Shown here: positions 39,593 through 42,939 of the stretch, in pieces
How positions within the stretch are numbered: position 1 is the stretch's first letter
Layout of the letters: the number at the start of each line of letters is the position of its first letter
Source of the DNA: Halovivax cerinus
Lineage (GTDB): Archaea; Halobacteriota; Halobacteria; Halobacteriales; Natrialbaceae
NCBI RefSeq assembly: GCF_024498195.1
Contig: NZ_CP101824.1
Location: 2,046,001-2,110,000 of the forward strand
Direction of reading: 5' to 3'
DNA: 64,000 bases
Notes under the pieces: model-generated
Told to the model about the DNA's origin: nothing
Database searches by the model: none
Seen by the model: the letters and a program-made list of their open reading frames with translations, nothing else
Position numbers and translations under genes: made by a program

Positions 39593-39636
39593 CTACAGTT
39601 CGGCGAGAAACTGGATCCGCCCTCCCCGATTTGAAC
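39593..39636. repeat. attR, 44-bp copy overlapping the tRNA-Tyr 3' end
   Basis: This is the right boundary of the provirus. It matches 21316-21359 with one mismatch. Positions 39616-39636 are the 3' end of the intact tRNA-Tyr, so integration preserved the tRNA gene. Confidence 0.9.
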
Positions 39637-39689
39637 GGGGGACAAGTCGATCTACAGTCGACTGCTCTACCAGTCTGAGCTAAGGGCGG
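39616..39689 (-). tRNA. tRNA-Tyr (GUA)
   Basis: A cloverleaf on the minus strand. Acceptor 5' CCGCCCT pairs with 3' AGGGCGG plus discriminator A; the D-arm contains GCTCAGACTGGTAGAGC. The anticodon stem GTCGA/TCGAC encloses the loop CTGTAGA, giving anticodon GTA. The T-arm is CCCCGTTCAAATCGGGG. The C1-G72 pair is typical of archaeal tRNA-Tyr. No intron is present. Its 3' end is the provirus attachment site. Confidence 0.95.
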
Positions 39690-39795: not shown

Positions 39796-40365
39796 ATGGG
39801 CAAGATCACGTTTCGCGCGGACGACGACCTCGTCGACGAACTCGAGTCGTTCGACACTTCGAAGAGCGAGGTCATGCGCGAAGCGTTGCGTTCGTATCTC
39901 GGTCGCTCCCCGCCGACGCCTGGCGTGCAATCGCCGGCGTCTTCGTCGACCGACGACTCGACGGGTACCTCTGCCTCGTCGCTCGACGACGTTCTCGAGA
40001 ACCGCATCGACGACGCCATCACGGATCGACTCGATCGAACGGCGCCCACCGACGTCAGGTTGCAGATCACGGTCGACTCCGAGTGCAGGTCCGATAGATC
40101 GCTGGACGCGAGTGACGCGGCGTTCGACGCCGACGACCCCTCGGACGCCATCGCCGGCTTCGACGAAGTGGACCCATCGGATCGCCGGACCTGTTCGCAA
40201 TGTGGGACGGACGTCCGGCCGTCGCACGTGTACTGTCCCAACTGCGGCGAGAAGATGGCGGGCCGCGTCTTCTGTGAGTGCGGGTCCGAGGTCCGCTCCG
40301 ATTGGGCATTCTGTCCGTCCTGTGGCCGGCGAACACCTGCGGCGGACGTTCTCGACTCCGCTTGA
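39796..40365 (+). CDS. cdrL: CdrL-like ribbon-helix-helix regulator with double zinc ribbon
   Basis: 189 residues. The N-terminal RHH domain reads GKITFRADDDLVDELESFDT then SKSEVMREALRSYL. An acidic Ser/Asp linker of about 90 residues follows, then two zinc ribbons (CSQCGTDVRPSHVYCPNCGE and FCECGSEV-FCPSCGRR). CdrL is the long RHH protein reported to regulate cdrS-ftsZ2 in haloarchaea, and the position just upstream of that operon matches. A TTTATACGAG element at about 39763-39772 places transcription start near the chosen ATG, so the mRNA is probably leaderless; ATG 39781 is an alternative. Confidence 0.78.
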   Translation: MGKITFRADDDLVDELESFDTSKSEVMREALRSYLGRSPPTPGVQSPASSSTDDSTGTSASSLDDVLENRIDDAITDRLDRTAPTDVRLQITVDSECRSDRSLDASDAAFDADDPSDAIAGFDEVDPSDRRTCSQCGTDVRPSHVYCPNCGEKMAGRVFCECGSEVRSDWAFCPSCGRRTPAADVLDSA

Positions 40366-40583: not shown

Positions 40584-40752
40584 GTAAGACGCCGAAATAC
40601 ACGGTGCCAGTACATTTATATACTGGCGGCCTGTTGGTAGCAGGCACGTAAGACGGTCGTCTTACACGACAGCTATTCGGGCGAAATCGCCCGACAGGAG
40701 CTGTGAGGGGTGTAAGACGGCGCGTGTCTGACAGGGGCACGCCACGTCTTAC
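40584..40752. promoter_or_regulatory. cdrS-ftsZ2 promoter and long leader with repeated GTAAGACG motif
   Basis: The gap 40366-40776 has no gene. A TATA box (TTTATATA, 40615-40622) predicts transcription start near 40645 and a leader of about 130 nt. The 8-mer GTAAGACG occurs at 40584-40591, 40648-40655 and 40712-40719, and its complement CGTCTTAC at 40658-40665 and 40745-40752. The pair at 40648-40665 forms an 18-bp palindrome around the predicted start. The hairpin CGGGCGA-AA-TCGCCCG is at 40678-40693. The two RHH proteins encoded here are the obvious candidate binders. Confidence 0.7.
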
Positions 40753-40776
40753 TCGAACCAACAGGGGAATACAACA

Positions 40777-40956
40777 ATGGAGCGTGTGACACTGCGAATT
40801 CCGAAGCAGCAGATAGACGAGGTCGAACAGCTGGTCGAGACGGGCGAGTTCCCGAACCGGAGCGAGGCGATCCGGTCGGCCGTCCGTGAGATGATCAACG
40901 AACAGGCGGAGAACCGGCCCGAGCGAGCCGGTAAACGAACCTGGGCGAAGGTGTAA
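40777..40956 (+). CDS. cdrS: CdrS, short ribbon-helix-helix cell-division regulator
   Basis: 59 residues: [20 protein letters not shown], then [20 protein letters not shown], a complete RHH domain with a short basic tail ([10 protein letters not shown]). In Halobacterium and Haloferax the orthologue controls ftsZ2 and other division genes and is co-transcribed with ftsZ2. Here ftsZ2 starts 2 bp after its stop, as expected. It was too short for many gene finders; I read it directly from 40777. Confidence 0.9.
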
Positions 40957-40958
40957 CG

Positions 40959-42149
40959 ATGCAGGACATCGTTCAGGACGCCCTCGAAAACGCCGAAGCT
41001 GAAGCCCGGGACATGGACGTCTCGATGGACGACGACGAGTTCGGTGACCCGCGGATCGTCATCATCGGGGCCGGTGGTGCGGGCAACAACACCATCAATC
41101 GGCTGTACAACATCGGCGTCGAAGGGGCCGATACGATCGCGATCAACACGGACAAACAGCACCTGAAGATGATCGAGGCCGACACCAAGATCCTCGTCGG
41201 CAAGTCGCTGACGAACGGTCTCGGCGCCGGTGGCGACCCGTCGATGGGCGAACGAGCCACCGAGATGGCCCAGAGCACCATCAAGGACGTCCTCGGCGAC
41301 GCGGATCTCGTCTTCGTCACCGCCGGCATGGGCGGTGGGACGGGTACCGGTGCTGCACCCGTCTGTGCGAAGATCGCCAAGGAACAGGGCGCGATCGTCG
41401 TCGGGATGGTCTCGACGCCGTTCAACGTCGAGCGTGCCCGCACGGTGAAAGCCGAGGAAGGACTCGAGAACCTGCGCGAACAGGCCGACTCGATCATCGT
41501 CCTCGACAACAACCGACTGCTCGATTACGTCCCGAACCTTCCGATCGGCAAGGCGTTCTCGGTGATGGACCAGATCATCGCCGAGACGGTCAAGGGCATC
41601 TCCGAGACGATCACCCAGCCGAGCCTGATCAACCTGGACTACGCGGACATGTCTACGATCATGAATCAGGGCGGCGTCGCGGTGATGCTCGTCGGCGAGA
41701 CACAGGACAAGAACAAGACCGAAGAGGTGGTCAAGGACGCGATGAACCACCCGCTGTTAGACGTCGACTACCGCGGCGCGTCCGGTGGACTCGTCCACAT
41801 CACCGGCGGCCCCGACCTCACGCTCAAAGAGGCCGAGGGAATCGCCGACAACATCACCGAACGCCTCGAGGCCAGCGCAAACGTTATCTGGGGCGCCCGG
41901 ATCCAGGAGAACTACAAGGGCAAGGTCCGCGTCATGGCGATCATGACCGGCGTCCAGTCCGCACAGGTCCTCGGTCCGACGACCCAGAAGCAGGCCGACA
42001 AGTCCCGTCGGAGCATCGAAGGCGTCAATGACGCCGACTTCGACGCCAGCAAGAACGTCGATACCGGTGGCGAGACCGGCTACGGCGCTCACAGTGACGG
42101 CGGTCGCGACCAGGTCGAGCGCAACAACGGCGTCGACGTCATCCGGTAG
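40959..42149 (+). CDS. ftsZ2: Cell-division tubulin homologue FtsZ2
   Basis: 396 residues. The tubulin signature GGGTGTGAA lies at 125-133, the N-terminal nucleotide loop GAGGAGNN at 37-44, and the T7-loop region NLDYADM after 220. The N-terminus [20 protein letters not shown] and the cdrS-ftsZ2 gene pair identify it as the FtsZ2 paralogue, which in haloarchaea drives ring constriction. The C-terminal 50 residues are a divergent, charged linker and tail. Nothing appears truncated. Confidence 0.96.
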
Positions 42150-42899: not shown

Positions 42900-42939
42900 G
42901 GGGTGTCGACGGGCGGCGTAAGACGCCGTCTGACACGAT

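Follow-up and report, generated by a model that had tools for sequence, protein, structure and literature searches.

What do repeated octamers do in the promoter and leader of an archaeal cell division operon? The control of division-gene expression in archaea is largely unknown, and the repeats in front of cdrS-ftsZ2 in Halovivax cerinus constitute a defined, conserved cis-element; in our literature searches, no relevant account of such a motif, or of an operator or leader of cdrS, turned up. The answer that we favor, and consider probable, is that the repeats are binding boxes for RHH dimers, which together form an autoregulatory operator array on cdrS-ftsZ2 that was re-lettered in haloarchaea. 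It would assign a predicted box to each of the two regulators, and would point to an evolutionary switch that may have taken place between them. Conservation, uniqueness, phasing, and the predicted RNA fold were computed here, while the ChIP facts come from the literature on other species.

Repeat boxes, promoter, and genes

The window, a stretch of 64 000 nt from contig NZ_CP101824.1, holds nine copies of GTAAGACG against 1.77 expected, a count reached by none of 100 shuffles, and five of the nine are packed into 169 bp (40584–40752). These five are exact matches at 40584 (+), 40648 (+), 40658 (−), 40712 (+), and 40745 (−), precisely where a preliminary description of the DNA had placed three direct and two inverted copies. 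The upstream box (40584–40591, +) lies 24 bp before the TATA box of cdrS-ftsZ2, TTTATATA (40615–40622, +), a position that would suit an activator site or an upstream operator. Box A1 (40648–40655, +), in the first bases of the predicted transcript, and box A'1 (40658–40665, −), 11 bp from A1 when counted from 7-mer start to 7-mer start, make up an 8+2+8 inverted repeat, GTAAGACG-GT-CGTCTTAC (40648–40665). The preliminary description had called this element an 18-bp palindrome at the predicted start; the inverted repeat is indeed there, but its two central bases are unpaired, and it is better termed an 18-bp near-palindrome. Boxes A2 (40712–40719, +) and A'2 (40745–40752, −) are likewise exact matches.

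Because the TATA box stands 33 nt ahead of the first leader repeat, transcription is predicted to start at the left edge of the near-palindrome; in H. cerinus the start site is a prediction from the TATA box. The general archaeal distance from TATA box to start puts the beginning of the near-palindrome at about +2/+3 of the predicted transcript. The distance from TATA box to first leader box is 32–33 nt in 99 of 113 relatives, such that the near-palindrome overlaps the core promoter and predicted start of the regulator's own operon. The leader is predicted to run for ∼130 nt and to end at the cdrS ATG (40777), in agreement with the length first proposed.

The gene cdrS (40777–40956, +) encodes an RHH regulator that matches the NCBIfam CdrS equivalog with 118.6 bits (cut-off 100), and it is followed by ftsZ2 (40959–42149, +; Pfam Tubulin and FtsZ_C). 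On the other side of the repeats lies a cdrL-like gene (39796–40365, +), recognized by an RHH start, a double zinc ribbon, synteny, and relatives; the zinc ribbons of its product exceed the cut-off, while RHH_1 and CdrL_M match only below theirs. The repeats are therefore flanked by RHH proteins as originally described, one passing its NCBIfam model and the other with an RHH start detected below the RHH_1 cut-off. A tRNA-Tyr gene (minus strand, 39616–39689) is situated just upstream of the cdrL-like gene.

Conservation across haloarchaea

The repeat is conserved in front of cdrS-ftsZ2 across haloarchaea. We compared about 110 haloarchaeal cdrS loci from several families, with 112 unique leaders for box counts, and looked for the motif in orthologous promoters, as the preliminary description had advised; it was found throughout. 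Nearly all leaders of the ∼110 loci agree in both the order and the strand of the four boxes (A1+, A'1−, A2+, A'2−). In the 112 unique leaders, GTAAGAC stands at A1 in 111 and at A2 in 102, and GTCTTAC at A'1 in 109 and at A'2 in 110. The spacing from A1 to A'1 is 11 bp in 95 leaders and 10 or 12 in the other 17. An exact box upstream of the TATA box occurs in 97 of the 112 and, depending on lineage, is found on the plus strand at about −65 or on the minus strand at about −52 from A1; this variation in strand points to a DNA site.

Of 116 haloarchaeal genomes, 109 contain exactly one match to the form GTAAGAC-N3-5-GTCTTAC, and among the matches listed, those whose coordinates were comparable by eye fall in the gap between cdrL and cdrS. 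In the host genome, even the looser GTAAGAC-N1-6-GTCTTAC is found at one place only, the element at 40648–40665. Five of the seven genomes without an exact palindrome belong to one family, which has a version with a 2-nt spacer in the four of the five that were read; the other two have one variant half each (GTATGAC in G206 and GTGAGAC in G226). This retention of order, orientation, and once-per-genome occurrence rules out a chance repeat, and we see practically no prospect for chance repeats or a decayed, functionless mobile repeat as the explanation, even though the 8-mer is not rare in the 3.9-Mb host genome (36 copies, compared to 22 for the reversed control) and its sixth copy, treated below, seems accidental.

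Phased boxes in non-haloarchaeal relatives

In 35 leaders from methanogens and other Halobacteriota, cdrS is preceded by boxes that read GTCAGAC or GTCTGAC. The first 17 of these leaders contain 27 matches to GTCWGAC against 0.28 expected, and GTAAGAC/GTCTTAC once. Of 198 box pairs, 175 have a spacing that is an exact multiple of 11 bp (89/101 and 86/97 in two genome sets), although the pairs are non-independent and some genomes closely related, so that the printed p-values for this phasing are too small. Among periods of 7 to 14 bp, there is an excess at 11 alone. Leader L155, for example, has boxes at −72, −61, −50, −39, −28, and −17, and in 32 of the 35 leaders the last box ends 10–26 nt ahead of the ATG. 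The symmetry of GTC-W-GAC is that expected of a site for one RHH dimer, and the spacing of the boxes by whole multiples of roughly one helical turn suggests RHH dimers lined up on one face of the DNA.

Such arrays resemble relO, the operator of RelB, and other RHH operators (PMC2812701) in having RHH dimers on tandem short boxes along the same DNA face, and also in autorepression of their own operon, which for cdrS is proposed here. They differ in that relO consists of four repeats of 6 bp and does not tolerate extra spacing, whereas the cdrS arrays have 7-bp boxes at 11-bp multiples, are often gapped, and are part of leader DNA that is transcribed and whose RNA is predicted to fold. Helical phasing was found in these relatives; in haloarchaea it is confined to the start-site pair, with A2 and A'2 out of 11-bp phase with A1. 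This counts against the operator-array explanation, as do the 10- or 12-bp start-site spacings and the 2-nt gap of one family.

Candidate readers of the boxes

For CdrS, published ChIP in Haloferax volcanii located a site with a symmetric motif at −50 of ftsZ1 (Liao 2021, PMC8406309). We find a GTCWGAC-type pair with 11-bp spacing in 26 of 30 haloarchaeal ftsZ1 promoters, mostly 63–67 bp before the ATG and with neighboring spacings almost empty; judged by this position, the CdrS box would be GTCWGAC-N4-GTCWGAC. The published sites and ours thus have in common a symmetric RHH motif upstream of promoters that include ftsZ1, matched by position. They part at cdrS itself, which is not among the 18 H. 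volcanii sites (PMC8406309), and where the cdrS-ftsZ2 box reported here is GTAAGAC and sits at the start site. A GTCWGAC pair at 10–12-bp spacing is found in none of the 110 haloarchaeal cdrS upstream regions, which is consistent with the omission of cdrS from the ChIP list. We take GTCWGAC to be the more likely CdrS-type box, with GTAAGAC its haloarchaeal variant.

Other promoters gave less. A candidate conserved GTAAGAC near the ftsZ1 start was dropped, being present in the host and absent from relatives, and the host proteasome promoters, judged by eye, have no clear box. CdrS has also been reported to target the diadenylate cyclase gene dacZ in H. volcanii; in the upstream region of the host gene (L145:358–375), GTCTGCC-N4-GTCGGAC precedes a TATA-like site.

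For CdrL, the only reproducible ChIP site in Halobacterium salinarum is the cdrS-ftsZ2 promoter (Darnell 2020, PMC7439475), which fits an operator that occurs once per genome. That is the same promoter as the one analyzed here; by word search, the text of that paper names no motif, palindrome, leader, or phasing. The published deletion of cdrL had acquired mutations at second sites. CdrL was detected in 149 of 155 haloarchaea, and 17 non-haloarchaeal genomes gave no full-length match to it, only zinc-ribbon stretches. Which protein reads which box we infer, with CdrL the most likely haloarchaeal reader of GTAAGAC. The six haloarchaeal genomes without detectable CdrL, from about five lineages, qualify this, since all six keep the palindrome: CdrL is not the palindrome's only reason to exist, and a role for it as sole reader is weakened, as to some degree is the operator array itself. 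A2 has often degenerated in these genomes, and four of the five lineages lack the upstream box; the palindrome may be kept by CdrS reading it, by another reader, or by inertia. One CdrL-less haloarchaeon (leader L217, genome G313) has two GTCTTAC boxes upstream of its TATA box and no recognizable A2.

An alternative is that CdrS by itself recognizes GTCWGAC as well as GTAAGAC, with CdrL an accessory and the haloarchaeal array a case of ordinary CdrS autoregulation. In the non-haloarchaeal relatives and the CdrL-less haloarchaea, CdrS is the sole RHH protein found at the locus and all keep boxes; moreover, a single base separates the two box types, and haloarchaeal CdrS proteins do not vary in their DNA-reading strand. 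We nonetheless judge it unlikely, as it must accommodate both a ChIP list that omits cdrS and haloarchaeal cdrS promoters that have no GTCWGAC pair, as well as the binding of CdrL to this very promoter in H. salinarum (PMC7439475). The suggestion in the preliminary description that the two RHH proteins could read the repeats is thus strengthened by the 11-bp phasing in relatives, the ftsZ1 comparison, and the published CdrL ChIP, while CdrL proves not to be the whole story. The DNA-reading strands of CdrL and CdrS differ by K3 versus R3, a difference that, together with the one-base difference between boxes, suggests a re-keying.

The RHH stretch of the CdrL-like protein also gives a weak match (24 bits, cut-off 60) to the NCBIfam model for aCcr1, the cell-cycle RHH repressor of Sulfolobales (cited in PMC12284271). 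Both represent RHH control of archaeal cell-cycle genes, but with a score under the family cut-off and with another lineage and other targets, CdrL is not a member of that family on present evidence.

The leader RNA

In haloarchaea, 72% of transcripts are leaderless and structured leaders are held to be not typical (PMC4983044). The long cdrS leader, which the preliminary description had singled out as notable, appears to be conserved as a structure and so goes against that view. For the whole leader, the predicted folding energy is −63 kcal/mol (z = −6.5). Since the inverted boxes trivially contribute part of this energy, we used the repeat-free inserts as the test. Insert 1 (40666–40711, +), a predicted RNA hairpin between A'1 and A2, has a mean z of −2.4 over 112 leaders, 83% of which are under −1; in the leader of the window itself (L090), the value is −5.65. 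Control regions upstream of the TATA box and within cdrS gave −0.65 and −0.02. Insert 1 folds better on the transcript strand than as its reverse complement (−2.52 versus −1.81), as does insert 2 (40720–40744, +), the right-hand hairpin (mean z about −1.1, or −1.13, versus +0.19); this is not expected from DNA-level symmetry alone.

Of 103 leaders, 101 have as their minimum-energy structure a nested fold in which A1 pairs with A'2 on the outside, shutting the leader's 5′ end, and A'1 with A2 on the inside. Flanking pairs covary strongly against plain shuffles (outer flank pair GC 80, AT 10), but a count along an ftsZ2 tree is modest, with 15 compensatory changes compared to 8–14 for slid partners; at A1+2:A'2−2 it is 3. 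Two other arrangements were rejected: local A1:A'1 and A2:A'2 hairpins as the native fold, which are on average 7.4 kcal/mol worse, are never the minimum, and have flanks without covariation; and a bistable switch, as the two folds come within 3 kcal/mol in only 10 of 103 leaders. Leaders of the window and six relatives have no Rfam match to a riboswitch or structured leader. Taken together, the predicted folds suggest that the leader is likely under selection at the RNA level, with a specific role perhaps in mRNA stability or translation. Directly 5′ of the cdrS ATG lies GGGGAATACAACA (with the ATG, 40764–40779, +), containing a GGGGAAT that is near-invariant in the haloarchaeal alignment; it is not a standard Shine–Dalgarno sequence, and may be an unpaired landing site right after the hairpin.

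Could the repeats act mainly as RNA? A1:A'2 and A'1:A2 would in that case serve as arms in a structured 5′ leader that governs mRNA stability or translation, and pairing, not DNA binding, would constrain the sequence of the repeats. The leader and insert z-scores, the transcript-strand bias, the better folding than controls, and the near-universal nested minimum speak for this, and Ribo-seq data from H. salinarum point to post-transcriptional regulation of cdrS-ftsZ2 (PMC8303175). Yet the upstream box is outside the predicted transcript and flips strand among lineages, the box letters are nearly fixed where pairing alone permits compensatory change, the 11-bp phasing in relatives is a DNA-helix signature, and A'1 is retained despite the loss of A2 (L217 and L218). 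With tree-aware covariation as modest as it is, we regard the idea as quite improbable.

A model of feedback control

In the RHH operator array that we favor, the division regulators would control their own operon through boxes for RHH dimers. The ancestral form, seen in methanogens and other Halobacteriota, would be a series of near-palindromic GTCWGAC heptamers at 11-bp steps, beginning in the start-site region and ending shortly before the ATG; its most likely reader is CdrS, which would make it autoregulatory. The haloarchaeal array would comprise two boxes 11 bp apart at the start site, a single box ahead of the TATA box, and two boxes downstream, its heptamer changed to GTAAGAC. Its most likely reader would be CdrL, the product of the neighboring gene, and CdrS might bind as well. 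Filled start-site boxes would block initiation and so repress, while the upstream box would occupy an activator-type place. Small RHH proteins, CdrS in the relatives and, in haloarchaea, CdrL alone or jointly with CdrS, would thereby exert feedback on the dose of cdrS-ftsZ2. The orientation of the transcribed boxes alternates, and for this reason the leader RNA would also fold into a long closed hairpin, apparently selected in its own right. We infer the direction of regulation, as we do the protein-to-box assignment and any RNA function.

A bolder version is possible, though we advance it only tentatively: the leader would be doubly coded, the same heptamers serving as DNA operators for two division regulators and as pairing arms of the RNA hairpin, and a one-bp re-keying from GTCWGAC to GTAAGAC at the origin of haloarchaea would have shifted control from CdrS to a new RHH protein, CdrL.

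Further boxes in the window

Insert 2 contains a CdrS-type GTCTGAC (40726–40732), and the GCGTCTGACAGGGGCGC around it is strongly conserved in leaders of Natrialbaceae and missing from Haloferacaceae. The sixth copy of GTAAGACG noted in the preliminary description (42918–42925) is real, but it does not belong to the system: it has no counterpart in Halovivax asiaticus (L010) and lies between convergent gene ends, and is therefore probably due to chance. At that place, GTAAGACGCC followed by GTCTGAC forms a mixed GTAAGAC/GTCTGAC pair (42918–42934).
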